The position numbers and the translations under genes were made by a program. Source: Litoreibacter meonggei (GTDB lineage Bacteria; Pseudomonadota; Alphaproteobacteria; Rhodobacterales; Rhodobacteraceae). From it: a stretch of DNA of 64,000 bases. The DNA lies in the NCBI RefSeq assembly GCF_003663885.1, contig NZ_RCCE01000002.1:620001-684000 (forward strand), read 5' to 3'. Under the pieces are notes generated by a model, which was not told the DNA's origin, searched no databases, and saw only the letters and a program-made list of their open reading frames with translations. Of this stretch, positions 24,417 to 53,821 are shown in pieces (the first letter of the stretch is position 1; the number at the start of each line of letters is the position of its first letter).

Positions 24417-24417
24417 G

Positions 24418-26177: not shown

Positions 26178-26467
26178 GTCTTCGCCCCGATTGTGATCCC
26201 GAATGTCGTGGGCTCAGGTTTCCCGTTCACCTTGCGGTCAACACATGCGGCAAACGCAGCATCCGCCGATTGCGGGCGGAACACCTTGTCCGTCACGGTG
26301 ATCGACCCACGGGCCTTGCCGCCACCGGTCCCGACACCCACGCCGATATTGCCCTGAACGCCGTCAGCCAGCCCCACCTCTTTACGGCACATCTCAGCCG
26401 CCCGTTCCGGCGAAACCGGAACAGGGGCACAAGCTGCCAACATCACAAAGGGGACCAGCCAGCGCAT
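26174..26467 (-). CDS. small lipoprotein directly after sdhA
   Basis: 97 residues. Lipobox LAAC (Cys 13), then AEMCRKEVGLADGVQGNIGVGVGTGGGKARGS, a glycine-rich stretch, and AAFAACVDRKVNGKPEP. The TAATG overlap with sdhA puts it in the sdh transcript. The pattern of a Cys near the start of the mature chain and another near the C-terminus recurs in the neighbouring lipoproteins, though direct homology to them is not obvious. Function unknown. Confidence 0.72.
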   Translation of the reverse strand: MRWLVPFVMLAACAPVPVSPERAAEMCRKEVGLADGVQGNIGVGVGTGGGKARGSITVTDKVFRPQSADAAFAACVDRKVNGKPEPTTFGITIGAKT

Positions 26468-28290: not shown

Positions 28291-28662
28291 TTAAAGAGCG
28301 ATGCGGGCGATGGCAAAAAGGCCAACCCCGGCGAGGGCGTAACAAAGGCAGATCGACAGGATAATCGCGACCTTGCGCGCCGTACCCTGCATGTAGTCCT
28401 CGATCGTTGCCTGCACGCCGTTTTTGAAATGCATCATACCCGCTGCGATAGTCAAAGCTGCCACAATGGCGGGGAATGGGCGGCTGTAATGGGCGATCAC
28501 CTCTTCATAAGGTGCGCCCAGAATGCGACCAAACGTGAAGATGAACAGCGGCACCAAAATCGCCATTGCAACAGCGGATACCATCATCGACCAATGATGC
28601 TCGGTGCCGGATTTGGCGGAGCCTAAGCCTTCGGCGCGTTTACGGTCTGTCAAATAAGCCAT
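28291..28662 (-). CDS. sdhD: succinate dehydrogenase membrane anchor subunit D
   Basis: 123 residues with three membrane helices (about 27-45, 55-75, 95-118). The His in EHHWSMMVSA and HFKNGVQATIEDY after helix 2 match the SdhD heme/quinone region. It anchors the dehydrogenase and helps bind ubiquinone. 10 bases separate it from sdhC. Confidence 0.93.
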   Translation of the reverse strand: MAYLTDRKRAEGLGSAKSGTEHHWSMMVSAVAMAILVPLFIFTFGRILGAPYEEVIAHYSRPFPAIVAALTIAAGMMHFKNGVQATIEDYMQGTARKVAIILSICLCYALAGVGLFAIARIAL

Positions 28663-28672: not shown

Positions 28673-29056
28673 TCACAAAATCACTGCGGTGATGATCGTC
28701 AGCACGAAGCTGCCAATCACGACGCCGTAAGCCAGCTTCTTTGCGGCCTCCAGCTCGAAGCCGCGGCCACTGTCCCAATACAGGTGACGCAAGCCGGCAA
28801 GGAAATGGTACCAAATCGCCCAGAGCGAGGCGAACATGATCAGATCACCAAACCAGCTGGTTACAAAGCCGTTGGCCGTGTTGAAGTAGTCTTCGCCGTA
28901 GCTGGCGGCGAGGAACCACCAGACAATCAGAACCGACGCGAGCATCAGTGAAATGCCGGTTAGCCGTGTCAGGATTGACGTCATCGACGTCCATTGTGGG
29001 CGGTAGATCGAGATATGGGGGGAAAGTGGTCTGTTTCCCCGATTGACGTCAGCCAT
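28673..29056 (-). CDS. sdhC: succinate dehydrogenase cytochrome b556 subunit
   Basis: 127 residues with three membrane helices. N-terminal RPLSPHISIYRPQWTSMTSILTRLTG and HFLAGLRHLYWDSG (heme-ligating His) are the two SdhC signatures. The ATG at 29056 gives the canonical start. It is the first gene of the operon sdhC-sdhD-sdhA-four lipoproteins/FkbM-sdhB. Two TGTGATCAC palindromes lie 122-152 bases upstream. Confidence 0.95.
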   Translation of the reverse strand: MADVNRGNRPLSPHISIYRPQWTSMTSILTRLTGISLMLASVLIVWWFLAASYGEDYFNTANGFVTSWFGDLIMFASLWAIWYHFLAGLRHLYWDSGRGFELEAAKKLAYGVVIGSFVLTIITAVIL

Positions 29057-29177
29057 GGCGCGTCCTTCGTTTGCTACGATGTTTGGTGTTATCTTTAGAC
29101 TATTAGAAGACCGAGTCACGCCCCAACCGCGCCGAAATGCGCGGTGTTTTGTAGCAAAACTGTGGATTATTTGCCTT

Positions 29178-29208
29178 TGTGATCACGCAAATCGAGCGCG
29201 TGATCACA
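29178..29208 (-). promoter_or_regulatory. paired TGTGATCAC palindromes upstream of sdhC
   Basis: TGTGATCACG (29178-29187) and CGTGATCACA (29199-29208), start-to-start 21 bp, together an extended dyad flanked by TTT/AAA. The same pair with the same 21-bp spacing lies before sucC (42688-42718). About two helical turns apart, so two dimers could bind one DNA face. Confidence 0.72.
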
Positions 29209-29226
29209 AATGGCGACTCGAAATAC

Positions 29227-29907
29227 TCAATTCAGTGATGCCACCTGTTTTGTGATCTCACGCAACAGCTTCTGGCGAATGCGTGTCGGATAGTCTTCGA
29301 AAGTCAACGCTTCCATAGCAAAGCTTCCTGGCCCCACGATCAGGTTGTCGCGATAATACTCCACCAACTCGATTTCGGACGCCGCTATTGCCAAGCCATT
29401 GATCGTCACGCCTCTGTGCAGCGCGGCGGCCTTCATCCGCTCTGGTGGCACGCCTTCGTTGGAAACCCCATCCCCCGAGACGTCAATCACCCGACGCTTG
29501 CACTCGGGCACCGCGTCGAATTGCGTCAAAGCACTGCCGACCGCTTCTCCGATCGCTGTAGAAAAACTTCGCCATTCGCGCGGAGCATCGTGGACACGCG
29601 CGGCCAGCGCATCTGCGGTCTCGAAATCAGTCACATGCGTCCACGGCACCGACACCTTTTGGCGTGAGACACCCGTCCATTGCAGCAACATGACCTTGGC
29701 CTGTGCAACCACCAATGCCTCTGTCACTGCGCTGTCACCCAGCGCCGCGCCTAAGCCTTCCATCTGCAAGCGGTACTCGCTCGGATCAACCGACCCCGAT
29801 ACATCCACTGCCAGCACCAAGGCCAGTTCACACGCCCGCGCCGAGGCGCAGCCGATCCATGTTGCCGCCATGAAGGAACATATCTGCATGCGCACACGAT
29901 GCCCCAT
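29227..29907 (-). CDS. secreted DUF1194 (vWA-like) protein
   Basis: 226 residues: signal peptide (1 to about 25), then ELALVLAVDVSGSVDPSEYRLQ (MIDAS-like D-x-S-x-S), RRVIDVSGDGVSNEG, ITINGLAI-type strand and a C-terminal GPGSFAMEALTFEDYPTRIRQKLLREI. It matches the protein encoded at 22809 across its length but lacks the sorting tail. Likely periplasmic. The sdh operator pair lies just past its stop codon, so its 3' end is close to the sdh regulatory region. Function unknown. Confidence 0.87.
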   Translation of the reverse strand: MGHRVRMQICSFMAATWIGCASARACELALVLAVDVSGSVDPSEYRLQMEGLGAALGDSAVTEALVVAQAKVMLLQWTGVSRQKVSVPWTHVTDFETADALAARVHDAPREWRSFSTAIGEAVGSALTQFDAVPECKRRVIDVSGDGVSNEGVPPERMKAAALHRGVTINGLAIAASEIELVEYYRDNLIVGPGSFAMEALTFEDYPTRIRQKLLREITKQVASLN

Positions 29908-29953
29908 ATCAGGCGCGCATTACATCACGTTTTCCCGTTCAGGTGAGCCGGTT

Positions 29954-30985
29954 CTAGACCGGCATCAACGCCCAGTAGTCCAGATCAAGCAGAACGCCGG
30001 GCAGATATTTACCATCGTCACCTTTCAACGAGAACGGCTCGGCCTCCGCCTTTTGCGCCACCAGACGCAACCGGATTGCACCAATACCAGGCGCGTCGGT
30101 CTCGGCCACGTCCAGCACTTCCGACCATGCCTTAATCGTATCCCCAGCTCCGCAAGGGTTCGCATGAGCACCGGAATTCAGCCCGACGATGATCTGCGCA
30201 TTGGCCAACCCGTTAAACGACAGCGCACGCGCCAGCGAGATGACATGCCCGCCATAGATCAACCGCCCGCCATCTCGCGCCGTCGCGTCGAAATGCACCT
30301 TGGCGGTGTTCTGCCACATGCGGGTGGCCAGCATATGCTCGGCCTCCTCGATCGTGACGCCGTCCACATGGTCGATTTTCTCGCCCACATTGTAGTCACT
30401 CAGGCGATGCGGCTCCCCCGCTTGCGCGAAGTTGTAGCCCTCGAAGCTAAGCCCCTCCGGCACCACCAAGTCACTGGCCGCAACGGACCCCGCCAAATCC
30501 GGCACCACCGTCTCAGGTGCGGGCGCGTCGACATTGCCCTTACGCACCATCACCCAGCGTACATAGCTCAGAACGTCTTCGCCCAAATGGTTGCTTCCCG
30601 TGGTCCGCACCCACACAACGCCAGTCTTGCCGTTCGAATTCTGCTTTACCCCGATCACTTCAGACCGCGAGCTGATCGTGTCGCCCATATGCACAGGCTT
30701 CAAAAACCGCCCTTCCGCATAACCCAGATTGGCCACCGCGTTCAGCGAAATATCAGGAACCGTTTTGCCGAACACCGTGTGAAACGCGATCAGATCGTCC
30801 AGAGGCGCTTCGTGCAAACCGCAATCGCGGGCAAACTCGTCCGACGAATAAAACGCATGCCGCGCCGGATAAAGCGCGTGATACATCGCCCGCTCGCCCC
30901 CCGACAGGGTGCGCGGCACCGCGTGTTCGATCACTTCGCCAACGGAATAATCCTCGAAAAACCGCCCCGCGTTGGTCTTGCTCAT
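29954..30985 (-). CDS. mch: mesaconyl-CoA hydratase (MaoC family)
   Basis: 343 residues, the length of mesaconyl-CoA hydratases. Double hot-dog (MaoC-like) protein: an N-terminal hot-dog with RFFEDYSVGEVIEH and a C-terminal one with GGRLIYGGHVISLARALSFNGL. It hydrates mesaconyl-C1-CoA to beta-methylmalyl-CoA in the ethylmalonyl-CoA pathway. The assignment rests on size and on its operon with mcl2 (31757), nnrU and the DUF1737 gene, the arrangement I recall from Rhodobacter sphaeroides. The ATG overlaps the DUF1737 stop (TAATG). Confidence 0.9.
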   Translation of the reverse strand: MSKTNAGRFFEDYSVGEVIEHAVPRTLSGGERAMYHALYPARHAFYSSDEFARDCGLHEAPLDDLIAFHTVFGKTVPDISLNAVANLGYAEGRFLKPVHMGDTISSRSEVIGVKQNSNGKTGVVWVRTTGSNHLGEDVLSYVRWVMVRKGNVDAPAPETVVPDLAGSVAASDLVVPEGLSFEGYNFAQAGEPHRLSDYNVGEKIDHVDGVTIEEAEHMLATRMWQNTAKVHFDATARDGGRLIYGGHVISLARALSFNGLANAQIIVGLNSGAHANPCGAGDTIKAWSEVLDVAETDAPGIGAIRLRLVAQKAEAEPFSLKGDDGKYLPGVLLDLDYWALMPV

Positions 30986-31188
30986 TATTGCGCCCCTAGT
31001 TTCATGTCGGGGCTGTAGCTGCCCTCTATCTCTTTGGTCACGGCCTGCCCGCAGCGCATCACGCCGTTGGAGGCGTCAAACGCGTAGGTCGGGTCGCCAT
31101 ACAGTTCCCAGCCTTTCGACAGCGCGTCCGACACTTTGTGGCAAAACGCCGAAGTGTCGTCTTCGGTCAGCAAACGATAAATCTTCAT
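30985..31188 (-). CDS. DUF1737 domain protein
   Basis: 67 residues: MKIYRLLTEDDTSAFCHKVSDALSKGWELYG is the DUF1737 start, followed by a short beta segment with MRCGQAVTKEIEG. Usually a stand-alone small protein of unknown function. It starts directly at the end of nnrU and overlaps mch by 1 base, so it belongs to the mcl2-nnrU-DUF1737-mch operon. Confidence 0.82.
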   Translation of the reverse strand: MKIYRLLTEDDTSAFCHKVSDALSKGWELYGDPTYAFDASNGVMRCGQAVTKEIEGSYSPDMKLGAQ

Positions 31189-31760
31189 CACACGCCCCCA
31201 AACGGGTTCACGCCCAGCCACGCATGGAGTCCTGCCGTGATACTGAAGGTCACCAAGGTGATGACTACCAACACGATTTCCTTTTTCATCGGAGCTTGCG
31301 CCGGCGGCGTCCAAGGTCCCTCAGCGCGGTTGATCATGATCATCGAGATCACCGCCCATGCCAACAGGCCCCCAAACAGAATGATCGACGCCAGGTCACC
31401 ATTCGCGAGTAGGTGCGCGAAGGCCCAAACCTTAACTGCGCCCAACATCGGGTGCCGGATTTTCGTCCCAAGCCAGACTTTGGCGGGCTTGGCCGCGGAC
31501 GCGCCAAACAGGTAGAACGCCAGCAACATCAGAAGGTTATTGATATGCCCAAAGAAGCTTGGTGGCGACCAGACGGGGATGAAGTCTGCTCGACCATAGC
31601 CGACCACCATCAACACAATCGACAAGACCAGCAGGACGGCTATGGCACCCTTGGATCCCTCGCCCATTTTGTCGGTCATCGCTTGACGCAGATCAGGGGC
31701 AAGCCGTTTGATCCAGTGGACAAAGGCCCACATCAGAACCCCGAGTATAAGTAACGTCAT
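31188..31760 (-). CDS. NnrU family membrane protein
   Basis: 190 residues with about five to six membrane helices. LLILGVLMWAFVHWIKRLAPDLR at the N-terminus and IRHPMLGAVKVWAFAHLLANGD in the middle are the NnrU signatures; the latter resembles isoprenylcysteine/methanethiol methyltransferase-type proteins. NnrU was named for nitrite/nitric-oxide metabolism, but many copies sit outside denitrification loci as here, in an ethylmalonyl-CoA operon. Its start overlaps the mcl2 stop by 4 bases. Role unknown. Confidence 0.85.
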   Translation of the reverse strand: MTLLILGVLMWAFVHWIKRLAPDLRQAMTDKMGEGSKGAIAVLLVLSIVLMVVGYGRADFIPVWSPPSFFGHINNLLMLLAFYLFGASAAKPAKVWLGTKIRHPMLGAVKVWAFAHLLANGDLASIILFGGLLAWAVISMIMINRAEGPWTPPAQAPMKKEIVLVVITLVTFSITAGLHAWLGVNPFGGV

Positions 31761-32608
31761 GCGCCCTCCAGCAGTTTGATTGCGTCCGCCTTCGCCAAAA
31801 GCCGCGTCGCTGTCTCAACATGCAGGTTTTCCACGATTTTACCATCGACAACCGCAACGCCCTGACCGTCGGCCATCGCCTGCTCGAACGCGGCGATCTG
31901 GCGGCGCGCGAGGTCAAGCTCGTCCGCAGATGGTCCGAACACCGCGTTCGTGACGGCAACCTGCGCCGGATGAATCAAGGTCTTGCCATCGAAACCCATG
32001 TCGCGCCCCTCGACGCATTCCGCGCGCAGCCCGTCTTCATCCTTGAACGCGTTGTAAACCCCGTCCACGCAAACCAGCCCTTCCGCACGCGAGGCCAGCA
32101 GGCACATCTGCAAGCTGGTCGTCATGGCGGCCCGCCCACGAGAGCCGAGATCCTTGGCAAGATCGTTGGTCCCCATCACGAAGCCCTCCATCTTCGGAGC
32201 AGCGGCGATTGCGGCGGCATTCAGAATGCCCCGCGGCGTTTCCATCATCGCCCAGATCGTCGTGTCGCCTTTCAGCAGCCCCGACAAGGCGGCAATCATT
32301 ACCGGGTCTTCTACCTTTGGCAGCAAGATCGCGTCGGGAGCCACGTCGATGAACGTCGCCAAATCGTCTGCGCCCCACTCGGTATCCCCCCCATTCACCC
32401 GCACAATGCGTTTGCGAGGGCCGTAATCCGTTGTCCGCAAGGTCTCGGCCAGCAAATCGCGTGCGGCGACCTTCTCATCCGGCGACACGGCATCTTCGAG
32501 GTCGAAGATGATCGCATCCACAGGAAGGCTCTGCGCTTTCTCCAGCGCGCGGGTCTTGGACCCGGGGATATAGAGCACCGAACGGTAAGGCTGCGCGACG
32601 TTTTGCAT
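31757..32608 (-). CDS. mcl2: CoA ester lyase family, probable (3S)-malyl-CoA thioesterase
   Basis: 283 residues, HpcH/HpaI aldolase fold. PYRSVLYIPGSKTRALEKA, IIFDLEDAV (metal Asp/Glu), RVNG, METPRGILN and GTNDLAKDLG are the CitE/Mcl motifs. The length and N-terminus match the shorter Mcl2-type thioesterase rather than Mcl1 (~318 residues). It would hydrolyse malyl-CoA to malate, finishing glyoxylate plus acetyl-CoA to malate. The third in-frame ATG (32608) is chosen because AGGAG lies 9 bases before it. First gene of the operon running to mch. Confidence 0.85.
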   Translation of the reverse strand: MQNVAQPYRSVLYIPGSKTRALEKAQSLPVDAIIFDLEDAVSPDEKVAARDLLAETLRTTDYGPRKRIVRVNGGDTEWGADDLATFIDVAPDAILLPKVEDPVMIAALSGLLKGDTTIWAMMETPRGILNAAAIAAAPKMEGFVMGTNDLAKDLGSRGRAAMTTSLQMCLLASRAEGLVCVDGVYNAFKDEDGLRAECVEGRDMGFDGKTLIHPAQVAVTNAVFGPSADELDLARRQIAAFEQAMADGQGVAVVDGKIVENLHVETATRLLAKADAIKLLEGA

Positions 32609-32674
32609 CGAATCCATCTCCTGTTTTGTTATTTTATTACTCACCATACAGCCGGACAGGCTGCAACACCTGAT

Positions 32675-32691
32675 TTGCCGCAGTGCGGCAA
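32675..32691 (-). promoter_or_regulatory. perfect palindrome upstream of the mcl2 operon
   Basis: TTGCCGCA-G-TGCGGCAA, 8-bp arms around a single base, 67-83 bases before the mcl2 start. The adjacent GCAGTGCGGC / GCAGTGCGCC forms a direct repeat. Related sequences precede mdh (33541) and ecm (16561). Confidence 0.6.
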
Positions 32692-32705
32692 TAAAGCAGT
32701 GCGCC

Positions 32706-33458
32706 CTAGGTTAGCCCGTCAAACACCAGCTTGGCACCGGCCCCCAGCAGCAACGCATAGGTGAGGAGGAAGAAGTACCTCTCCGGCATCGCCCGATGGG
32801 CGTAAACTCCAAGGGCCACACCAATCAGCACAAACGGTAGCATATACAAGTCCGCCCGCAGCGTATCCCAGCTGAAGACACCCAAAAAGGCGTAAGGCAC
32901 GGCTTTCATCGCGTTGATCACCCAAAAGGTGATTACGGTGGTCGCTTGGTAGGTCGTCTTCCCCATGCCCTGCGCAAGCAGGAAAATCGCGGTAGGCGGT
33001 CCACCCGCATGACTAACAAAGCTGGTAAATCCTGAAACGACGCCTGCAATCAGCCCGTTTCGCTGGTTGAACCCCGTTTGCTCAACCGACAGCCAGCCCC
33101 GGGCGCGTGAAATCTGAAAGGCCACAAACCCCAAGGAAATCGCCCCGATCAGGACGCGCAACACATCCGGATTGGTCGCCTTGTATAACGCTGCACCCAA
33201 TAAAACCCCGGGGACTCCACCAATGATCAACGCCTTAGCGCTTGGCCAATGCCACTTGCCCCAGAACGGTCGCAAAGTCGCAACATCGGCGATCATCAGC
33301 AGCGGTAACATGATGCCCAAGGCCGTCGCCGGCGGCAGGAACAACGCTAGAATCGCCGTTGCCACAAACGCCGCCCCGCCGCCAAAGCCGCCTTTCGCCA
33401 CCCCCGAGATAAAGGCTGCCGGAAGTGCGAGCGCGAAAAAGGTGGGGTCAAAGTCCAT
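32706..33458 (-). CDS. TauE/SafE family membrane exporter (second copy)
   Basis: 250 residues with about eight helices. GVAKGGFGGGAAFVATAILA near residue 20 and GVVSGFTSFVSHAGGPPTAIF near residue 135 are the two TauE/SafE repeats. It is shorter than and diverged from the copy at 7785. It is divergent from mdh and reads towards mcl2, but the palindrome at 32675-32691 lies between it and mcl2. Substrate unknown. Confidence 0.87.
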   Translation of the reverse strand: MDFDPTFFALALPAAFISGVAKGGFGGGAAFVATAILALFLPPATALGIMLPLLMIADVATLRPFWGKWHWPSAKALIIGGVPGVLLGAALYKATNPDVLRVLIGAISLGFVAFQISRARGWLSVEQTGFNQRNGLIAGVVSGFTSFVSHAGGPPTAIFLLAQGMGKTTYQATTVITFWVINAMKAVPYAFLGVFSWDTLRADLYMLPFVLIGVALGVYAHRAMPERYFFLLTYALLLGAGAKLVFDGLT

Positions 33459-33509
33459 ATTACGCAGCTAGAGCAAAAAATCCCGTCAGTTCAACACCTA
33501 ACCGCGTGA

Positions 33510-34586
<1,077 letters not shown>

Positions 34587-34611
34587 GCCACTCGTTCCGA
34601 TTGAATAGAAG

Positions 34612-34638
34612 GCCCGCCCTTAATTGGGCGGGCTTTTT
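34612..34638 (+). terminator. rho-independent terminator of mdh
   Basis: GCCCGCCC (34612-34619) pairs with GGGCGGGC (34626-34633) around TTAATT, followed by TTTTT. Confidence 0.93.
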
Positions 34639-34713
34639 ACTTTTCTGGGTATGCTCCACGACTTAGCATCCCAAAAGGCACCTCAAACCATCTGGTCATC
34701 TGGAATGACTTTC

Positions 34714-35088
34714 TTAGCTCGCTCCGTCAGGGCGAGTTAAGATGTAGCTGGCAGCACACAGCAGGCATATTGCCTGAATAACCAGAACCTTAAAGGCCAC
34801 TCCCAATACCAAGCTTGAACCAAGGGTGAGGACCATCATTCCAACGGCTATTGCTTTGTATTTCGGTGCAATCGCCCCCTTGGCTCTCCACTCTGCGATA
34901 ATCGGCCCGAAGGTGCCGTGGTTTTCAAGCCTCTCAGCCAATCGCGGCGATCCCTTAGCGAAGGCAAACGCTGCTAGAATAATAAACGGAGTCGTAGGAA
35001 GCACAGGAAGCAAGACGCCAATTGCGCCCAGAGCCAGTGCCAACAGGCCCAGTACGGTCCAAAGGGATTTAGCCAAAACGATACTCAC
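34714..35088 (-). CDS. DUF454/YbaN family inner-membrane protein
   Basis: 124 residues with about three to four membrane helices. [42 protein letters not shown] at the N-terminus is the YbaN signature (G-x-G-x2-PLPTTPF type). Small inner-membrane protein of unknown role. It stands alone, convergent with mdh, about 75 bases past the mdh terminator. Confidence 0.85.
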
Positions 35089-35133
35089 AACTGTTGAGGT
35101 CTCTCACGTCCAATATGCCGCGCTCTAACGCAG

Positions 35134-35313
35134 TCAGTTCTTTTTGCCAGCATAGCGATTTAGATCGGTAACATACAAACCGATCAAATCACGAAATGTC
35201 TGCTTTGAGCCCAGAGTTACTGATGCTGCGTCGTGTATGAATGTCAGCTTTGGCCGAAGTGGCGCGACAACTTTTCTGACAGTATCGCGCCACCAAACTC
35301 CCGTGCCTAGTTC
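35134..35313 (-). pseudogene. possible C-terminal gene remnant without a start codon
   Basis: A stop-free frame of 59 codons ends at TGA 35134-35136 and has coding-like character (TFIHDAASVTLGSKQTFRDL, then a basic end AGKKN). It contains no ATG, GTG or TTG that would give a sensible start, and it begins inside the stop region of the SRPBCC gene. It may be what remains of a larger gene after deletion. The rest of the 35089-35306 gap shows nothing else. Origin not recognised. Confidence 0.25.
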
Positions 35314-35882
35314 TCAACGACGGCTTTTAGCTCCGCATTGAACGTTTGATACATGGGCAGCAACTGGGTCACGAAGTTCGCAGCATAGGGGTTGTCGACA
35401 ACTTCGTCTGATTGGACGAAAAGAGTCTGATCACCACAGGCTTCAACGCGATAAACATGGTTGTCGTGACCGCCGCCGTTGTCTTCGGGGAAAGGATCGG
35501 ACCAACCGAAAGAGCGGCCCTCTTCATAGATAAGCGTATGAGGGATCTCCATCAAATTGGGCTCACCGTTCTCATCGGTGCCAAAGATAAAGGTGATGGT
35601 CACGCTGCCGCCATCTTGGATGTCGCCTATCATGCCCTGCAATGTGCCGGTGCTCCAACTTGCCATGTTGTCGAAGTCGGTCAGGGTTGCCCACACGTCG
35701 ATCGCGTTGGCGTTGATAAGCACCGATGTATCAACAGTTGCATGGGTCGGGCTGAGTTGGGCGATGCTGCCGCTCATCAAACGCGCATCGCAGGATGTAT
35801 CTGCCGCCAAAGGTGTACTGAACGCGATTGCAAGCAACGGGGCGGCAAGTGCGGTTGAAGTGAACGGGAAAGAACGGTTCAT
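35307..35882 (-). CDS. secreted SRPBCC (START-like) family protein
   Basis: 191 residues. Signal peptide (1 to about 27, near PLAADTS), then a SRPBCC-fold pattern: DTSVLINANAIDVWATLTDFDNMASWS at the first strand/helix, IHTL-type strands, and a C-terminal long helix (NFVTQLLPMYQTFNAELKAVVEN). Proteins of this fold bind hydrophobic ligands; a secreted form is less common. Transcribed apart from its neighbours, with 56 bases to the aldo/keto reductase gene upstream. Function unknown. Confidence 0.8.
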   Translation of the reverse strand: MNRSFPFTSTALAAPLLAIAFSTPLAADTSCDARLMSGSIAQLSPTHATVDTSVLINANAIDVWATLTDFDNMASWSTGTLQGMIGDIQDGGSVTITFIFGTDENGEPNLMEIPHTLIYEEGRSFGWSDPFPEDNGGGHDNHVYRVEACGDQTLFVQSDEVVDNPYAANFVTQLLPMYQTFNAELKAVVEN

Positions 35883-35938
35883 AGTGACTCCAATAGAGTT
35901 GGTGTTTCGATGTATTGAAAGGTTGGATGAAGGCGCGG

Positions 35939-36847
35939 CTACTTGCTGGGATCGCCGGATGCCCAGGCCACACCATCACCGCGGTCCATGGTCGCCATCT
36001 GCGCCATGTCTGCGTCGTCGATCGTGAAAGAGAACAGATCCAAGTTCTGAGCCAACCGTTCCGGGTTCAGGCTTTTGGGCAGAACGGCATAGCCATTCTG
36101 TACGCCCCATCGCAGCAAGAGCTGGGCCTCAGAGACGCCGTACTTCTGAGCCATGCCTTTGAAGGCCGCGCCGTCCGCCTTCATGTCATCAGTCTTGGCG
36201 CTGTCCTGACCGGGCTCTGTGCGCCACGTGGAGAGTGGGACAAGGCTGCTGTAGGCAATCGGTGCGATGTTGTGCGCGGCCATATGGGCAAGCAGGCCGG
36301 GTTTCTGGGACCAAGGATGCAATTCGATCTGGTTGGCGTCGGGCATCGGCAGGCCAGCGGCGCTGATCTCGTCAAGATGGCTTTCGTTGAAGTTGCTCAC
36401 GCCGATGGAACGGGCCTTGCCACTGGCTTGCAAGTCCAGCAAGGCGCGCCATTGCTCCAGACGCATATCACCGCCGTAAGGCGCGTGGATCAGATAAAGG
36501 TCCACATACTCCAACCCCAGACGCGACAGGCTTGCGTCGCATTCCTCAAGGGTTTGTGCACCGGTTTTGGGCGCGTCGCCCCAAGCGGGGTTTCCGGGCC
36601 AAAGTTTGGCCGTTACGAACAGATCAGCACGGGGTAGCCCTTCGGCCTGCAACCCTTTCCTGATCCCGGCCCCAACCGTTTCCTCGTTGCCATAACCAGA
36701 AGCGGTGTCGATGTGCCTATAGCCTGCGGCGATTGCCGAACTGATTGCGGTTTCAGCATCGTCATTCGAGATAAGATAAGTGCCAAACCCGATTGCGGGG
36801 ATTGAGGTGTCAGAGTTGAGGGCGAAGGTGGTTTGTGGTCCGGACAT
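35939..36847 (-). CDS. aldo/keto reductase (second copy, DkgA-like)
   Basis: 302 residues, AKR fold. D and Y in HIDTASGYGNEETVG, K in VTAKLWPG, H in YLIHAPYGG, and VLPKSLNPERLAQN for NADPH. It resembles 2,5-diketo-gluconate-type reductases. GGAG 6 bases before the ATG at 36847 selects that start over one four codons earlier. It is divergent from an AraC-type regulator gene; the 159-base space between them probably holds both promoters, and the regulator likely controls this enzyme. Confidence 0.9.
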   Translation of the reverse strand: MSGPQTTFALNSDTSIPAIGFGTYLISNDDAETAISSAIAAGYRHIDTASGYGNEETVGAGIRKGLQAEGLPRADLFVTAKLWPGNPAWGDAPKTGAQTLEECDASLSRLGLEYVDLYLIHAPYGGDMRLEQWRALLDLQASGKARSIGVSNFNESHLDEISAAGLPMPDANQIELHPWSQKPGLLAHMAAHNIAPIAYSSLVPLSTWRTEPGQDSAKTDDMKADGAAFKGMAQKYGVSEAQLLLRWGVQNGYAVLPKSLNPERLAQNLDLFSFTIDDADMAQMATMDRGDGVAWASGDPSK

Positions 36848-37006
36848 GCAGTGCTCCATTCATGCGTCTTGTTGATTGGAAGCTATGTGCGTGGCGGCGA
36901 TCCGTCCTGCCAAATTCTCCGGTATGTCTGCCAATTCCTCCGAATGGTTGGGAAATTACGTGATCTTACGGAACACTCCTGATAGAGATCGGCAAAGGAG
37001 ATGCCG

Positions 37007-37879
37007 ATGACGTTTGAGAGAGTACAGCACCTGTCAGCAGAGCTTTCAGTCCGCGAAACAGCACGTTCGGGCAGAATCCTGCCTGCTGCGCATATATTTC
37101 AACGAGAGGATGTCACGGCGTTTGAGGCTGTTGTTTATAACCCTGTGATCTGTCTGATCCTACAGGGGCGAAAAGAAATGAACATCGGTGATCAATTGGT
37201 TTCTCTGGCTGAGGGGGATGCGCTGTTGGTCAGCCACGACTTGCCCGTGACGTCCAAAATAACGCAAGCCAGTTCCGATGCCCCGTACCGCGCACTTATC
37301 CTGTCATTGGATTTAGGTATTTTGCGCAGCCTTTATGAACAGGTCGGCGAAACGGTGTCGGACACGCAGGGCGCGAAATCCCTCTCGGCGAGTGTCGCTG
37401 ATCCCGCATGGGTCGGTCCAATCGTGCGCTATCTGGAATTGATGGATGCCCCCCTTGATATACAGGTCCTCGGTCCGATGATCCTGAAAGAAATCCACTA
37501 CCGTCTCTTGTTGTCGCCGATTGGCGGTATGTTGCGGAACCTGTTGTCGGTCGACAGCCATGCCAGCCGTATCGCCAAATCCATCCAACAGATCAGGACC
37601 AGTTTTCGAGAGCCGTTGGCGGTGGGCGAACTGGCCGAAGTGGCCGGGATGAGCCCGTCGTCGTTTCATGAGCACTTCAAGTCTGTGACTGGCACGACAC
37701 CACTGCAGTATCAAAAAGATCTCCGAATGATCGAGGCGCGCGCGCTTTTGGAGCGCGGTGTCCCTTCTGTATCCGTTGCAGGATTTGAAGTCGGTTATGA
37801 GAGCTCCACGCATTTCAGCCGCGACTACTCCCGCAAATTTGGTTGCTCGCCCAAACACCACCTCGCGCGGGCATCATAG
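37007..37879 (+). CDS. AraC family transcriptional regulator
   Basis: 290 residues. N-terminal AraC_N cupin-like domain (about 20-170, with VICLILQGRKEMNIGDQ) and a C-terminal double HTH: LAEVAGMSPSSFHEHFKSVTGTTPLQYQKDLRM and the second helix pair VAGFEVGYESSTHFSRDYSRKFG. AAGGAG lies 6 bases before the ATG at 37007, which is chosen over the one at 37001. Divergent to the aldo/keto reductase gene; typical arrangement for a local activator. Confidence 0.92.
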   Translation: MTFERVQHLSAELSVRETARSGRILPAAHIFQREDVTAFEAVVYNPVICLILQGRKEMNIGDQLVSLAEGDALLVSHDLPVTSKITQASSDAPYRALILSLDLGILRSLYEQVGETVSDTQGAKSLSASVADPAWVGPIVRYLELMDAPLDIQVLGPMILKEIHYRLLLSPIGGMLRNLLSVDSHASRIAKSIQQIRTSFREPLAVGELAEVAGMSPSSFHEHFKSVTGTTPLQYQKDLRMIEARALLERGVPSVSVAGFEVGYESSTHFSRDYSRKFGCSPKHHLARAS

Positions 37880-38188
37880 TTTGCTTCTGCGGTAAAAAAG
37901 CAAACATTTAGACAGAATAGGAAAACGGAAGCCTTGTCCCGCGGCATGTGAGTTCCTGCACCGTGCGGCGAAAGGTCTGTGTTGAGATCCAGCTCGCTTG
38001 ACCCGCTTGAATGGCTGCATTGGTGAACTACACTGCACTGCCATAAGTTCATCGCCTCGGTTGCGAACAAATGCTGCGTCAGCAAAGGAATAGAAACGAA
38101 TGTCGGGAAGGTCCCGCGTCATACCAGTTCGTGCGCGGTGCCGCGAAGGGCGGCTTGATACCATTGTTTATGCCGGTCGGTAGTCGCT
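37880..38188. other. 309-base stretch without a convincing gene
   Basis: A weak inverted repeat GTTTGC...GCAAAC (37879-37905) follows the AraC stop; its 15-base loop makes a terminator uncertain. The remainder has open frames on the minus strand but their conceptual products are basic, low in hydrophobic periodicity and unlike any family I recognise. It may be a degraded gene or plain spacer. Confidence 0.4.
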
Positions 38189-38542
38189 TCAATATCCTTC
38201 AAATCGGTAGAATGTAAATTCTGGCACCGATATGACGCCTGCGGCGCGCATACCGTTTTTTAGTGCCGGGTCCGCGGCAAATGCCCTTGCGCGATCAAGC
38301 GTATCCCACTCGAAGATGACAGTTACTGAATTGGGGTCTGCCGGGTTCTGTAAGATTTCGAATGCTGTCTCCCCGACGCTTTGTCTGGTTGAAAGTGCTC
38401 CGTCAAAAACGGACTTCCATGCCGCAAAATCGGCGACTTGGTGCTGGACGATCATGACAGCATCTTGGGCAGCGGCGCTCTGACATATTCCTAATGTCAG
38501 AGCGGTCGAGAGTGTTAATGAGCGAAAAGTTGAATGTGACAT
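38189..38542 (-). CDS. small secreted protein, dimeric alpha-beta barrel (ABM-like)
   Basis: 117 residues. Signal peptide (1 to about 26, cleavage near AAAQDA), then AVMIVQHQVADFAAWKSVFDG, VTVIFEWDTLDRARAFAADPALKNGMRAAGV: the ferredoxin-like half-barrel pattern of antibiotic-biosynthesis-monooxygenase-type proteins. A periplasmic version is unusual. It follows the sulfotransferase gene by 59 bases on the same strand and may be read with it. Function unknown. Confidence 0.72.
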   Translation of the reverse strand: MSHSTFRSLTLSTALTLGICQSAAAQDAVMIVQHQVADFAAWKSVFDGALSTRQSVGETAFEILQNPADPNSVTVIFEWDTLDRARAFAADPALKNGMRAAGVISVPEFTFYRFEGY

Positions 38543-38601
38543 CTGCAAAAATACCCAAACTAAATAGACGTTAGATCGTGACGATTGCGCTCAATAGGCG
38601 C

Positions 38602-39495
38602 TCAGGATGCGCCGCTTTTGAGCCAATCTGCGCAGGCCTCACCAAGTTCGGCGATGGCAGTTTTTTCATATCGCTCACTCAACGCTTGCGGCAGCTCATC
38701 ATTCCAACGGCCATTTTTGCCTTTGTGGATGAAGGTCTTTGCGCCGCCTTCCCAGAATGCACCACCCAGCGGCACAGTTTGCGCAGCATTTTCTTTCATG
38801 TAGTCGAATGAGCAATGCTTAAGCACGCGGTCCATGATTGCTTGCTCAGCTGGTACATCGATAAACTCAGCAATGCGGCGAATTTGACCTTCCATGTCTG
38901 ACTTGAGGTCCGCAAAATGCACGAGCATCACGTTTGGAAGATCGCGAATAGCCCACCAAGAACGGACGTTTTCCCAGAAAGGCCAGAACGGCGCGCCATC
39001 ATTGTCGAGCCAATTCTCAAAGTACTCTTGCGTGGTGCCAACAGGCAGCTCGATAGGAGGGCCAACACGTCCAGGCGTGTTGTTCAGCGCGTCATACCAC
39101 GCGTCATTGGCGTTGAGGTGGTGGTTGTGGAGAGACCAAGCAATGTCACGCCCATCGCGTGCGACGTAAACGTATTTTGCCTTATCTGAGAAAACGAGCG
39201 CATCGACCGGAAGATGCGTTTTTAGAAAGCGGCGATGAGTTTGGGCTTCAATCATGGGCAATTTCACCTCTTTGGGTGGAATGCGTAAGTCGACCCAATG
39301 CCCCATCTCCGAGACTGGCAGGTTTTCTTCACCGTCAAAGATAAGTTGGCTGATGATTTGCTGCATCCACGTCGTTCCAGTTTTTCCATATGTTCCGATG
39401 ATAATGTCATCGTCGCGAAACTGAATGTCGTCCCAGATCGTGCTGTCAAAATGATGGCTGTGTATGTCGCGGGTTTTTGTTGGCAAACTAGGCAT
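38602..39495 (-). CDS. sulfotransferase family protein
   Basis: 297 residues. The PAPS-binding 5'-phosphosulfate loop is TYGKTGTTWMQ near residue 35, the 3'-phosphate site includes YVARDGRDIAWS (with the conserved Arg/Ser), and the C-terminal IHKGKNGRWND matches the RKGxxGDW-type motif. It transfers sulfate from PAPS to an alcohol or amine. The ATG at 39495 is supported by AAAGGA 7 bases before it. It is divergent to a LysR-type gene across 126 bases, suggesting local control. Confidence 0.9.
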   Translation of the reverse strand: MPSLPTKTRDIHSHHFDSTIWDDIQFRDDDIIIGTYGKTGTTWMQQIISQLIFDGEENLPVSEMGHWVDLRIPPKEVKLPMIEAQTHRRFLKTHLPVDALVFSDKAKYVYVARDGRDIAWSLHNHHLNANDAWYDALNNTPGRVGPPIELPVGTTQEYFENWLDNDGAPFWPFWENVRSWWAIRDLPNVMLVHFADLKSDMEGQIRRIAEFIDVPAEQAIMDRVLKHCSFDYMKENAAQTVPLGGAFWEGGAKTFIHKGKNGRWNDELPQALSERYEKTAIAELGEACADWLKSGAS

Positions 39496-39621
39496 CGTAA
39501 ATTCCTTTATCATTGAAATATCTTGCCCATAGGCTATCCCCCTCTGCCTTTTGCACAAATACACAATAGTAGCCTGCGGCTCTGCATTCGTGCACAGTGC
39601 GCCTCAGGACGGGAGGCCACT

Positions 39622-40524
39622 ATGTTCAACTGGAATGATATTCGGGTGTTTCTGACGGTCGCTGAAGAGGGGTCGTCGCTCGCTGCTGCTAGTATCATCG
39701 GAATGAACCACACCACAGTTGCGCGCCGCATCGACGCATTAGAACATGCGCTAAATCTAGAACTATTTGAACGTACAAACCGTGGGTACAATTTGACGGC
39801 ACAAGGATTGGTTCTTTTAGACGTCGCGAAAACAATGCGCGCTTCTGCGGCATCTGTCCTTACCACAGCCGAACAGTTGGCCCGCGATGATGATGGCGTG
39901 ATCCGATTTGCAGGAAATGCTGAAGCAATGCAGCGATTTGGTGTCAAACTCACCTCAAAGTTCAAAGAGAAGAACCCTCAAATTTCTTTCGATCTGTTGA
40001 TTGATGTTGCATGGGACAAAAACCAATCACCGCTGGAGTCCGGAAAGGCTGATTTGGTGCTGCGCCCAATTGACGAGATTTCCGGAGATACGCTGATAGC
40101 CAAAAAGTTGGCGCGGTTTCCTCTCGGTGTCTATTGCAGCAAGGCATATCACCAAAAATACGGTGCGCCACGATCACTCGACGAGGCGCAAGGTCGAAAG
40201 TTTGTGATTTATTCAGACGAGGTCGCACGCGTCATGAAAGCGGTGGACTGGCTTAACCATCAACTTGACGCTGCTGATATTCTGTATCAAGTCAACGCTG
40301 TCACCAGCATGGCTGCAGCCCTTCAATCTGGAGCGGGATTGGGATTATTGCCCTGTGTCACCGGCGATGCAACCCCGGACTTAGTGTCCTGCTTCCGCCA
40401 TGAAGAGCTTCAACACACGCTCTGGCTGGTCGCATCAAAGGAAAGCTATACGCGCCCTGCTGTTCGCAAGTTCATGGCCTTTGCAGGAGAGCATTTTAAG
40501 TCAGGTAATCGGGCTGGCGCATAG
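39622..40524 (+). CDS. LysR family transcriptional regulator
   Basis: 300 residues. N-terminal winged HTH NWNDIRVFLTVAEEGSSLAAAS...HTTVARRIDALEHALNLELFERTNRGYNLTAQG, then a periplasmic-binding-like effector domain (about 90-290) with LQSGAGLGLLPC. GGGAGG precedes the ATG at 39622. Divergent to the sulfotransferase gene, which it may regulate; the inducer is unknown. Confidence 0.9.
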   Translation: MFNWNDIRVFLTVAEEGSSLAAASIIGMNHTTVARRIDALEHALNLELFERTNRGYNLTAQGLVLLDVAKTMRASAASVLTTAEQLARDDDGVIRFAGNAEAMQRFGVKLTSKFKEKNPQISFDLLIDVAWDKNQSPLESGKADLVLRPIDEISGDTLIAKKLARFPLGVYCSKAYHQKYGAPRSLDEAQGRKFVIYSDEVARVMKAVDWLNHQLDAADILYQVNAVTSMAAALQSGAGLGLLPCVTGDATPDLVSCFRHEELQHTLWLVASKESYTRPAVRKFMAFAGEHFKSGNRAGA

Positions 40525-40655
40525 CCGAAGTTGTTTCAGAGGTGAGTTGTTCAAACCCTCATTTGAAGTGAGGTCCATCCGAAAGCGGCCATTGAGATAA
40601 AAACGTTGAATGTCCGGAAAGTCCGCAAAGCAGCCACTCTCCGAATTTTCTCTAT

Positions 40656-41672
40656 CTATCCAAGGCCGTCGAAAAACTCCGCCTTCTCCGCCCTTAACCA
40701 CGCGTCAAATCCCGCCGCTGACAAATCCAGCGTCTCGTGCGGTAGCAGTGCCTTCAGCCCGCGGGTCACGTCAAACGGCACTTCCAACAGCAGGTCTTCC
40801 TCTCGAAGAGAGTCGACCATAACCCCCAGCACCTTGACCCGGTCATGCAAGGCATTCGCCGCCGCCATGTCGCCGCCGCCCGCCTCAATGGCATCGATCT
40901 GCGCCTGCATCTGCTCGGTAATCGGCTGGCCCACCTGCGTCTCGCGAAACTGCGCCTTGCGAAGGCGTTTATAAACCCAGTGCAGCCGCGTCATCCCGTC
41001 GAAATGCAAGATCACCGATGACCGAGACCGCTTCACCCCCGGAAAAGTCCAAGGCCGCTCGGTGTCATGGTGGGGCCGATGAATACCCAGCACGTAGTCG
41101 TATCCCGTGGGCGAGCACGCCTTGCCCTCGCTATGTCCCGTCAGCCCGAACCGCGTCAGCCCCTCGCCGTCCAACACCAGCCGCGAGAAATCTCCTTCCA
41201 GCCGCTTGGTGGACGCGCGGAAATTACCGCTGAACATGTCATCTTGCGCCTCCCCCTCCAGCCAGACCCGTTCCAGATTGGGAATGTTCAGGTAGTCGCC
41301 GGGCCGCATCGTTTGCAGCCGCGCCAGCTCTTTCTCCAATGGCTCGACCTGATGGATGAATTCGTCCGCATCCAGATGCACCAGATAGTCCACATCCGTG
41401 CGCCTATATGCCAAAGTCGCGTTCAAGGTCTGCCGCCGCTGGTGCGTTTTCGGCACCTTGATATCAAGCTCCGCACGCCAGTAGGCCTCATCTGCAACCG
41501 TGACATGCACCGCGTCCAGCGGCGCCAGCAACGCTCGCGTGCGCAGGTTGTCGCGGTCCAGATATATGTGCACCGCCGAGGCGCCAGCCCACAGATGATG
41601 CGCGGCATAAGCGGCCACAAGCTCCGGCGGCTCGTCCATGGTGCCCACAACGCCCCAAGTCGGCAGTTTCAC
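40656..41672 (-). CDS. glycosyltransferase family 2-like protein
   Basis: 338 residues from a GTG at 41672. WGVVGTMDEPPELVAAYAAHHLWAGA is the usual start of this GT group (nucleotide-sugar strand and helix), YIYLDRDN-type strand follows, and LVHLDADEFIH supplies the DxD-like metal motif. The frame is open to 41816, but that extension crosses the terminator of the preceding gene (41773-41799) and lacks a ribosome site, so a start after it is preferred; the exact codon is uncertain. Its acceptor is unknown. The 131 bases between it and the LysR gene show nothing notable. Confidence 0.78.
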   Translation of the reverse strand: MKLPTWGVVGTMDEPPELVAAYAAHHLWAGASAVHIYLDRDNLRTRALLAPLDAVHVTVADEAYWRAELDIKVPKTHQRRQTLNATLAYRRTDVDYLVHLDADEFIHQVEPLEKELARLQTMRPGDYLNIPNLERVWLEGEAQDDMFSGNFRASTKRLEGDFSRLVLDGEGLTRFGLTGHSEGKACSPTGYDYVLGIHRPHHDTERPWTFPGVKRSRSSVILHFDGMTRLHWVYKRLRKAQFRETQVGQPITEQMQAQIDAIEAGGGDMAAANALHDRVKVLGVMVDSLREEDLLLEVPFDVTRGLKALLPHETLDLSAAGFDAWLRAEKAEFFDGLG

Positions 41673-41772
41673 AGGTTTGCCCCATTCTTGATTGATCTCA
41701 TTTGAACAGGGAATGCCGGATTTCCGTGCAACGTCAATGTCGAACCCCGATAATGCAGCCAATTCGACATGG

Positions 41773-41799
41773 AAAAAGCGGCCCGCTTTCACGGGCCGC
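41773..41799 (-). terminator. rho-independent terminator of the VPLPA-CTERM gene
   Basis: On the minus strand GCGGCCCG (41799-41792) pairs with CGGGCCGC (41785-41778), followed by TTTTT (41777-41773). Confidence 0.9.
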
Positions 41800-41834
41800 C
41801 TCTCTGATCTTAGCAAATACCTAAATCGTTAGGC

Positions 41835-42482
41835 TTAAGCCTTGCGACGCTTACGACGTGCCGCCCCTACTCCCAGTAGACCAAAGCCGGCAGCCAGCAT
41901 CGGCATAGCGGCCGGAAGCGGTACTGCGGCCACGTATTCCACGGTCGCACCACCAAGGTAGAACTGGTCAGCTGACGTGCCGCCATACGCAAAGGTGATC
42001 GAGGTGAGCGAGCCACTGACGCCGTTGTAGGTCGCGAACGTCCGCTCTGACAGCACCGAACCGTTATACCCTATGTCAAAGGTGCTGGAACTGGTCGACA
42101 ACGAGTTGTGATTTCCATCATAGAAGATGAAGTTGGTCATGGACGTTACATTCTGCCCAAAGGTCAGCGTTACGCTTTCCCCTGTCGTAATGTTGTCGTC
42201 GTTAGACGGATCACACTGGTTGCTGATACCACCGACAACACCAATCGTACCACAAACACCCAAGCCAGCGGGCTTGCCGTTAGACAAGTCATCCAGATAC
42301 GCGTTGTGGGACGAGGTCAGTGTGACATCGAGTCCGCCAAAGGTGAAGGTTTGCCCTTCAACGCCACCACGGTCACCGGGCGTACCCGCTGCAAGTGCGA
42401 CGAAATCCAAGCTGACCGTTGCGGCGGAGGCGCTTCCGCCTATCACCAATAAAGCAGCGGTCGCCGCTAATAGTCTTTTCAT
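41835..42482 (-). CDS. secreted VPLPA-CTERM sorting-domain protein
   Basis: 215 residues. Signal peptide (1 to about 20, GSASAA), a beta-rich domain high in Gly, Thr and Ser with a likely disulfide pair (GVCGTIG...NQCDPS), and the C-terminal tail VPLPAAMPMLAAGFGLLGVG followed by ARRKRRK. Should be exported, processed at the tail and released or anchored on the cell surface, perhaps in exopolysaccharide. A strong terminator follows. Three TTAA elements lie about 100 bases upstream but with spacings unlike a CtrA box. Confidence 0.85.
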   Translation of the reverse strand: MKRLLAATAALLVIGGSASAATVSLDFVALAAGTPGDRGGVEGQTFTFGGLDVTLTSSHNAYLDDLSNGKPAGLGVCGTIGVVGGISNQCDPSNDDNITTGESVTLTFGQNVTSMTNFIFYDGNHNSLSTSSSTFDIGYNGSVLSERTFATYNGVSGSLTSITFAYGGTSADQFYLGGATVEYVAAVPLPAAMPMLAAGFGLLGVGAARRKRRKA

Positions 42483-42814
42483 GAGTTTTCTCCAGACTGG
42501 TTACAAAAAACACCATTTATGAAATTGAGAATTGCATGCACAGATAGATGCCAGAATCATTTCCCCAAATGGCGGCTCTTAATAGTTAACATTATTTAAG
42601 GTTTTGGTCAAAATGACGCATCGTGGTCTGGATTTCTTCGCCGCGATTCCCTGCGAGCACCCCTTTGAATGCACATCCTCGCCATTTTGTGATCACGGCA
42701 TTTAGGCGTGTGATCACAAATGTCGCTTTTATGGCCCTTAGGTCAATTTCAGCGTTTGCGCTGAGGTTATCCCATGTATCAAAGGCAAGAACCCCCTGAC
42801 TCAAGGAGAGAGTT
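42483..42814 (+). other. 332-base intergenic region with the suc operator
   Basis: No gene is credible here. It holds the divergent promoters of the VPLPA-CTERM gene and sucC. The left half is AT-rich (TTAA at 42579, 42586, 42596). The paired palindromes at 42688-42718 are described separately. AAGGAG (42803-42808) is the sucC ribosome site. Confidence 0.6.
42688..42718 (+). promoter_or_regulatory. paired TGTGATCAC palindromes upstream of sucC
   Basis: TGTGATCACG (42688-42697) and TGTGATCACA (42709-42718), start-to-start 21 bp, flanked by TTT and AAA, 97-127 bases before the sucC start. Same motif and spacing as before sdhC. Confidence 0.72.
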
Positions 42815-44008
42815 TTGAACATCCATGAATACCAAGCGAAGGCGCTCCTTCGCTCCTACGGTGCCCCCGTCTCGGACGGTCGCGTCGTCCTCGCCGCCGA
42901 AAACGCAAAATCCGCAGCAGGTGAATTGGACGGCCCGCTCTGGGTTGTCAAAGCTCAAATCCACGCAGGTGGCCGCGGCAAAGGCTCCTTCAAGGAAGCC
43001 GATGCAGGCGAAGCTGGCGGTGTGCGTCTGTGCAAATCCGTTGAAGAAGCCGCCAACGAGGCTAAAAAGATGTTGGGCCGCACATTGGTCACGCACCAGT
43101 CCGGCCCCGCGGGCAAGCAAGTGAACCGCATCTATATCGAAGACGGCTCCGGCATCGAAACCGAACTCTACCTCGCCCTGCTCGTCGACCGCCAAACCAG
43201 CCAAGTCAGCTTCGTCTGCTCGACCGAAGGCGGCATGGACATCGAAGAGGTCGCCGCCTCCACACCAGAGAAAATCCTGTCCTTCTCCGTCGATCCGGCC
43301 ACCGGTTACCAAGCCTTCCACGGCCGCCGCATCGCGTTCGAGCTGGGCCTCAAGGGCGCACAGATCAAACAATGCGTCGCCTTGATGGGCACGCTCTACA
43401 AACTCTTCATTGAGAAAGACATGGAGATGCTGGAAATCAACCCGCTGATCGTGTCCGACAAGGGCGATCTGAAATGCCTCGACGCCAAGATGGGCTTTGA
43501 CGGCAACGCCATGTACCGCCACGCCGACATCGCGGAGTTGCGCGACGAAACCGAAGAAGACCCCAAAGAGCTGGCAGCGTCGAAATACGACCTCAACTAC
43601 ATCGCGCTGGACGGCGAAATCGGCTGCATGGTCAACGGCGCGGGCCTTGCCATGGCGACGATGGACATCATCAAGCTCTACGGCGCGGAGCCTGCCAACT
43701 TCCTCGACGTGGGCGGCGGCGCGACCAAAGAGAAGGTTACCGAGGCGTTCAAGATCATCACATCTGATCCGAACGTCAAAGGCATCCTCGTCAATATCTT
43801 CGGCGGCATCATGCGCTGCGACGTCATCGCCGAAGGCGTTGTCGCCGCGGTGAAAGAAGTGGGCCTGCAGGTGCCGCTGGTTGTCCGCCTCGAAGGGACC
43901 AATGTTGAAGAGGGCAAAGCCATCATCAACGGCTCCGACGTCGACATCATCGCAGCCGACGATCTGAAAGACGGCGCCGAGAAGATCGTGAAAGCGGTTA
44001 AGGGTTAA
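42815..44008 (+). CDS. sucC: succinyl-CoA synthetase (ADP-forming) beta subunit
   Basis: 397 residues, normal length. ATP-grasp domain starts with the canonical [28 protein letters not shown] is the nucleotide-binding loop; the C-terminal CoA-ligase-type domain has [10 protein letters not shown]. The start is TTG, supported by AAGGAG and by the exact family N-terminus. Makes ATP from succinyl-CoA in the TCA cycle. First gene of the suc-lpd cluster. A REP-like inverted repeat separates it from sucD. Confidence 0.96.
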
Positions 44009-44010
44009 CT

Positions 44011-44069
44011 TGTAGGGCGGGGTTTACCCCGCCGTGCTTATCCATCGGCGGGGTGAACCCCGCCCTACA
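44011..44069. repeat. REP-like inverted repeat between sucC and sucD
   Basis: Left arm 44011-44034 and right arm 44046-44069 match at 23 of 24 positions (core TGTAGGGCGGGGTT). Each arm is itself palindromic (GGCGGGGTxxACCCCGCC). A half copy is at 51132-51153. Confidence 0.85.
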
Positions 44070-44093
44070 CTCAAGATTTCAAGAGGAGCCCAC

Positions 44094-53790: not shown

Positions 53791-53800
53791 TGTGATCACA
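53791..53800 (-). promoter_or_regulatory. TGTGATCACA palindrome at the gntR start
   Basis: A perfect 10-bp palindrome identical to the second sucC site, 10 bases before the gntR ATG and 21 bases after the DUF4387 stop. The position suits autoregulation of an internal gntR promoter. Confidence 0.6.
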
Positions 53801-53821
53801 TCGCCCCATCGGGTCAAGCCG

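Follow-up and report, generated by a model that had tools for sequence, protein, structure and literature searches.

Paired palindromes upstream of sdhC and sucC in Litoreibacter meonggei as likely tandem operators of an AkgR-type GntR/FCD regulator

Two operons of the tricarboxylic acid (TCA) cycle in Litoreibacter meonggei, sdh and suc, are each preceded by a pair of palindromes built on GTGATCAC, which raises the question of which protein reads these pairs and how. Both lie in a 64,000-nucleotide stretch of contig NZ_RCCE01000002.1 (positions 620,001 to 684,000), referred to here as the window. Judged from sequence and its conservation, the pairs are very likely tandem operators of an AkgR-type GntR/FCD regulator encoded in the same window (53131-53781), which would activate sdh and suc from one face of the DNA and probably represses its own gene.

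The two pairs are located as follows.

29178..29208, no strand: operator pair 5' of sdhC (21-bp start-to-start spacing, genome pattern search)
42688..42718, no strand: operator pair 5' of sucC (21-bp start-to-start spacing, genome pattern search)

The sdh-side pair is composed of TGTGATCACG at 29178-29187 and CGTGATCACA at 29199-29208, and the suc-side pair of TGTGATCACG at 42688-42697 and TGTGATCACA at 42709-42718. A sequence check found both where the initial annotation had placed them, each with 21 bp from start to start. The distance from pair to start codon is 122 bp for sdhC (ATG at 29056, minus strand) and 97 bp for sucC (TTG at 42815). Both pairs stand 5' of a TCA-cycle operon, as annotated, and they are the sole exact pairs of the 3.95-Mb genome: the pattern YGTGATCACR-N8..14-YGTGATCACR retrieved exactly these two places, and its reversed control gave 0 occurrences genome-wide. 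Sites of the CRP/FNR family have the form TGTGA-N6-TCACA or TTGAT-N4-ATCAA, and such a site was ruled out, as each of the four palindromes has its halves directly adjoining.

Within the window, GTGATCAC occurs eight times against 1.15 expected from dinucleotide shuffles (0 of 100 shuffles reached eight). Four of these occurrences form the pairs, one at 53792 lies 5' of a GntR gene, and three are elsewhere, as single sites at 6029, 25478, and 58761. The genome holds nine further exact TTGTGATCAC sites, and because seven of these fall within open frames, single sites are uninformative, unlike the pairs, whose gene context is given below. For the same reason single GTGATCAC sites were set aside as extra members of the regulon, and a wider regulon in this genome is not established.

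Conservation was assessed in a family sample of 198 genomes from 197 genera with the pattern GTGATCAC-N2..32-GTGATCAC. At least one such pair is present in 176 of the 198 genomes, with two pairs in about 120, one in 33, and three or more in 23 by hand count of the table, and the reversed control gave 0 in all 198. Gene context was read for 83 pairs (81 from relatives and the two described above), which are pairs among the matches listed and not a random draw; two listed pairs, one of 18 bp in G044 and one of 13 bp 5' of the regulator ortholog in G187, were left out. A TCA gene follows 78 of the 83 (sucC in 40, sdhC in 36, sucA and fumC in one each), and the spacing in these 78 is 21 bp in 69, the fumC pair included, and 20 bp in nine. 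The five pairs without a TCA gene have spacings of 18, 24, 27, 27, and 31 bp, and the two-helix-turn spacing therefore goes with the TCA operons. Conservation ahead of sdh and suc in relatives, on which the initial annotation had staked its reading, is thus borne out. The same annotation had named random placement, inside genes as often as upstream, as evidence against a regulatory role; a partial check found single sites mostly in genes, but not the pairs.

In the locus readings of the 83 pairs, the distance from pair to start codon is 107 to 191 bp for sdhC and roughly 95 to 155 bp for sucC, the sucC values being 3 nt too long because the SucC query started from codon 2, where M had been put in place of the first letter. 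Some arrangements depart from the common one. In G042 (locus L166, 1201-1229) an extra 21-bp pair lies 5' of a fumC-like gene, identified by recognition, so that the regulon may have spread to a further TCA step. In G177 (locus L049, 1501-1529) the pair lies between an mdh-like gene and sucA and not 5' of sucC, and in G187 (locus L091, 2179-2199) the site 5' of the akgR ortholog is itself a pair, with a spacing of 13 bp.

Of 380 genomes from the class but not from the family, 24 contain a pair of any kind; the spacings are scattered (21 to 22 bp at 5 of the 24 loci), and tblastn found no sdhC or sucC at these 24 loci, read at one per genome over about 1.5 kb on each side where the contig allowed. 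Five family genomes within the class-wide sample have two pairs each. The paired architecture looks family-specific because pairs beyond the family are scattered in spacing and lack sdhC and sucC at the loci read.

The candidate for binding these pairs, and the site at its own gene, are the following.

53131..53781, minus strand: AkgR-like GntR/FCD regulator of 216 amino acids, proposed binder of the pairs (PF00392 and PF07729 above cut-off; co-occurrence)
53791..53800, no strand: single operator TGTGATCACA, about 10 nt 5' of the akgR-like ATG (sequence)

The gene directly follows lpd, and its TGTGATCACA is a site beyond those of the initial annotation. The product combines a GntR winged helix (PF00392) with an FCD domain (PF07729), both above cut-off, as expected of a member of the AkgR group. 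Its orthologs were searched for in the family genomes and in three named Cereibacter and Luteovulum genomes. Among the 198 family genomes, with a cut-off of E<1e-80 chosen after the values had been seen, ortholog and pair are both present in 172 and both absent in 19, with the ortholog only in three and the pair only in four (Fisher p 8.8e-20, relatedness of the genomes ignored). When 21 pair-less genomes were searched with SucC, a match of 73 to 88% identity was retrieved in 16, one of 51 to 52% only in two, and none in three; in most of them, therefore, the control and not the operon is missing.

This co-occurrence was computed for one of the eight FCD-domain regulators of the genome, and the existence of the other seven, together with the four genomes that have pairs and no strong ortholog, leaves room for another GntR/FCD paralog or another regulator to bind the pairs while the 53131-53781 gene merely travels along. 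That is quite improbable in view of the near-exact co-occurrence of this ortholog with the pairs, of the motif carried by the gene itself (present at 22 of 30 loci, and at a fixed promoter position in 21 of these), and of the agreement of motif and targets with published statements on AkgR and RSP_0981 (PMC6365646 and PMC4344238, each in the portions available).

Cereibacter johrii, Luteovulum azotoformans, and C. ovatus, close relatives of Rhodobacter sphaeroides compared here in place of RSP_0981 itself, each contain one ortholog of 74 to 76% identity, all other matches being at 34% or less, and each contain exactly two 21-bp pairs. In C. johrii and L. azotoformans the ortholog adjoins sdhB, with the pairs 5' of sdhC and sucC on the same contig, which suggests agreement with the numbering of RSP_0981 close to RSP_0974-6; in C. 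ovatus the ortholog is on another contig. The FCD part of 30 orthologs retains N-L-x-F-H and a further H. At one position these orthologs have D where the FCD pattern usually has histidine, so the metal or ligand chemistry of the AkgR-like FCD domain may differ from the usual one.

The initial annotation knew of no described factor for the paired site, which was mistaken, as GTGATCAC is in print. The available text of PMC6365646 reports it among the AkgR binding sites of R. sphaeroides and calls AkgR a GntR activator, and that of PMC4344238 has RSP_0981, a GntR regulator, predicted to control sucCD (succinyl-CoA synthetase), sdh, and 2-oxoglutarate dehydrogenase. As far as these portions go, the system described here resembles AkgR in motif and family and RSP_0981 in its targets, and the window has GTGATCAC sites before sdh and suc, as expected of the AkgR group. 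AkgR carries an FCD domain, and it is reportedly the same protein as RSP_0981 (Imam et al. 2015, mBio). The control element is real and strongly conserved, and it belongs to a described kind of regulator, because the AkgR/RSP_0981 literature and the Cereibacter/Luteovulum orthologs with their two 21-bp pairs match. No description of the paired geometry, the whole-turn phasing, or the self-site was found in the literature searched, the primary AkgR paper being outside that search.

Two other GntR-type systems offer partial parallels. E. coli NanR is described as occupying a repeated operator with several dimers, as proposed here, but there they are three, on (GGTATA)3 repeats, in a repressor with another motif. 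For PS417_07240 of Pseudomonas simiae, a GntR-like protein of the deoxyribonate genes that is 32% identical to AkgR, GTGATCAC is the proposed site, but there is one site, at -47 to -40 from its own start codon, and the pathway is another (PMC6365646, available sections). The palindromes, judged by reading, do not fit the CceR site, given as [A/G/T]GTT-N6-8-AAC[A/C/T] in the part of PMC4344238 available, and CceR may bind elsewhere in these promoters.

How the pairs would act is indicated by their position relative to the sdh promoter, for which two boxes were located in the window.

29114..29119, minus strand: GTGACT, -35-like box of the sdh promoter, 59 nt past the gene-proximal GTGATCAC (sequence; same offset class in most relatives' sdh loci examined)
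29091..29096, minus strand: AAAGAT, -10-like box of the sdh promoter, with a 17-nt spacer, tentative (sequence)

In general, sdh promoters present a -35-like GTGAC[AT] 3' of the pair. Thirty-six sdh loci were taken irrespective of offset; GTGACW lies 40 to 94 nt after the pair in 30 of them, at 57 to 60 nt in 26 and at 48, 69, 78, and 80 nt in one each. The distances fall into classes near 48, 59, 69, or 80 nt, which are whole helical turns about 10.5 bp apart, and the operator upstream of the -35 box keeps its rotational register in 30 of 30 unselected loci with GTGACW and in 99 of 99 when offset-chosen loci are added.

Broader searches gave the same picture. The box lies 40 to 70 nt after a pair in 259 of 394 family genomes; among the 150 matches listed, 131 are at 56 to 61 (mean, 58.7), seven at 47 to 50, nine at 69 to 70, and one each at 44, 55, and 66. 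The search from 64 to 94 nt returned 43 rows in 41 genomes, with 21 at 68 to 71, 12 at 77 to 82, and 10 elsewhere. With a 10.5-bp period, the 19 outliers in the first set have a mean cosine of the phase to the main peak of 0.69, and the complete second set of 43 rows has one of 0.53 (each with p 1e-5 versus uniform offsets), or 0.26 (p 0.007) without the 68-71 cluster; the two sets share 10 rows, and the p-values ignore shared ancestry and include sucC pairs. Periods of 10.25 to 11 fit about equally well.

The listed off-phase rows were checked one by one, and among them there is no sdh locus whose first box is off-phase. Rows at 55, 66 (three), 73, 77 (two), and one at 82 belong to sucC pairs; that at 44 is on the opposite strand of a pair also giving 79; those at 86, 88, and 90 are second boxes behind the 58-59 box of the same pair; and for those at 84, 91, and 93 sdhC is absent from that side. 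For another row at 82 and two at 71 (L284, L271, and L274) no sdhC was found. The row at 80 from G023, although in phase, comes from a sucC pair and was left out of the count.

The history of the offsets was traced in 105 genomes with sdhC verified downstream, loci mostly fetched by listed offset, so that shares are not frequencies: 66 are at 57 to 60, 19 at 68 to 71, seven at 47 to 50, seven at 78 to 81, and six are without GTGACW, with none elsewhere. When the four offset classes are placed on a quickly built maximum-likelihood tree of Sdh proteins, parsimony requires 27 changes (40 of 102 inner branches are weakly supported, and the true number may differ). It thus appears that insertions and deletions have repeatedly shifted the sdh promoter by one or two whole turns.

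This phasing supports activation from one DNA face. In E. coli, CRP in class I activation likewise works from upstream and from the correct helix face only, but its site, TGTGA-N6-TCACA, has separated halves and those described here abut. The initial annotation proposed a regulator dedicated to the TCA cycle, with its two dimers sharing a DNA face; both elements remain predictions, now supported by co-occurrence, spacing, and helical phasing.

Phasing alone would also suit looping, and many described GntR regulators are repressors, so the pairs could be repressor sites that block sdh and suc, for instance by looping or by polymerase exclusion. This is unlikely: the sdh pairs precede the -35-like box by about 48 nt or more (mostly 57 to 60 nt), which places them clear of the polymerase core site, the sole promoter-overlapping site is the single one at the regulator's own gene, and AkgR is called an activator (PMC6365646, in its available text). 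The two palindromes might instead be read as one long inverted repeat, forming an RNA hairpin or terminator, since two successive palindromes automatically form an inverted repeat and the sdh pair lies about 18 bp past the stop codon of a DUF1194 gene. Such an element is extremely improbable, as the sequence between the palindromes varies while their spacing is fixed, the pair is upstream of the inferred promoter, the minus strand has no T run after the pair, and phasing with the -35 box would be meaningless for RNA.

For suc, the promoter boxes of the window are weaker.

42755..42760, plus strand: TTTGCG, weak -35-like box of the suc promoter at offset 37, tentative (sequence)
42777..42782, plus strand: TATCAA, weak -10-like box of the suc promoter, tentative (sequence)

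Averaged over 47 suc loci, promoter matching is best at offset 48, which is a turn nearer than at sdh, and the best weak match in the window, at 37, is one turn closer than 48. The position of the suc promoter is much less certain than that of sdh, and the register at suc is too weakly defined to judge.

The regulator's own gene presents a different arrangement, which involves one further box.

53813..53817, minus strand: TTGAC, -35-like box of the akgR-like gene, beginning 18 nt ahead of its GTGATCAC (sequence)

Among the 30 best-scoring ortholog loci, 22 have GTGATCAC within 130 nt 5' of the matched frame, and in 21 of these 22 TTGAC begins exactly 18 nt ahead of it. The self-site thereby falls between -35 and -10, a repressor position, and because of this the AkgR-like protein is predicted to repress its own gene. 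In many cases the akgR start codon coincides with the expected point of transcription initiation, and the message may therefore be leaderless.

In the proposed activation by the AkgR-type regulator, each 8-bp palindrome GTGATCAC would bind one dimer, and two dimers two helix turns apart (21 bp) would bind cooperatively on the same DNA face. Placed upstream of both promoters, sdh and suc, and rotationally aligned with the -35 box, the dimers would, as the phasing suggests, activate transcription by contact with RNA polymerase. At its own gene the protein would probably act as a repressor through the single operator between -35 and -10. It is probable that the double-dimer operator of this GntR/FCD activator is a rigid one, that strong selection holds its rotational register to the promoter but leaves the distance free, and that the same protein shuts its own, perhaps leaderless, gene from a fixed single site.

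Several observations weigh against this reading. Pairs without a strong ortholog occur in G019 and G033 (one pair each) and in G096 and G114 (two each), and G114 is rated 100% complete, the other three being 74 to 91% complete. Conversely, the ortholog occurs without an exact pair in G040, G155, and G147; of these, G040 carries the two pairs 7.5 kb from each other, each with a single mismatch, G155 has no sucC match, and G147 has a sucC match of 52% only. GTGACW is missing from six of the 36 unselected sdh loci, and the suc promoter is poorly defined, with 48 the best single-locus offset in nine of 40 and the others scattered. The exact self-operator is missing from eight of the 30 ortholog loci and from both Cereibacter-type loci read. 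Finally, about 110 bp separate the operator centre from the inferred sdh start site downstream, which is far for a textbook class I activator, and bending or another protein may therefore be needed for activation of sdh.

The genes of the two operons and lpd are assigned as follows.

28673..29056, minus strand: sdhC (TIGR02970 above cut-off and PF01127, both run on 28673-29053)
28291..28662, minus strand: sdhD (PF01127)
26467..28272, minus strand: sdhA (PF00890 and PF02910)
23637..24617, minus strand: sdhB, frame as listed (PF13085)
42815..44008, plus strand: sucC, with a TTG start (NF001913 above cut-off)
44034..44978, plus strand: sucD (by recognition; relatives aligned)
46043..49000, plus strand: sucA (PF00676 and PF16870)
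49000..50517, plus strand: sucB (by recognition)
51658..53046, plus strand: lpd (by recognition)

The true start of sdhB is probably internal to the listed frame, because relatives align from residue 68. Between sdh and suc, genes for a mesaconyl-CoA hydratase-like protein and an HpcH/HpaI aldolase (29954-32647, minus strand) occupy the same place as in C. johrii and L. azotoformans. About 8 kb (34714-42482) separate mdh from sucC in L. meonggei, and in C. johrii mdh is about 100 bp ahead of the suc pair; the intervening segment contains DUF454, polyketide cyclase-like, aldo/keto reductase, AraC, sulfotransferase, LysR, and glycosyltransferase genes and a PEP-CTERM-like frame (below cut-off). 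A tripartite tricarboxylate transporter is represented near the akgR-like gene, at 55467-58481 on the minus strand, by genes for TctA (PF01970) and TctC (PF03401) that enclose a small gene; next comes a frame that we take, by recognition, to be response-regulator-like. A tricarboxylate link between these transporter genes and the AkgR-like regulator is possible.

The likely outcome is an already named regulator and a defined geometry for control of the TCA cycle in 176 of the 198 sampled family genomes. In Paracoccus denitrificans, a 2024 study placed key TCA and respiratory enzymes outside the CceR regulon and suggested other mechanisms (PMC11323563, in the part available), and AkgR-type control is a candidate for these enzymes. 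Because the operator is phase-locked, simple insertion mutants could test whether a GntR/FCD protein activates directly. If the reading is true, the sdh promoters would amount to an evolutionary helical-phasing experiment on a switch of central metabolism.

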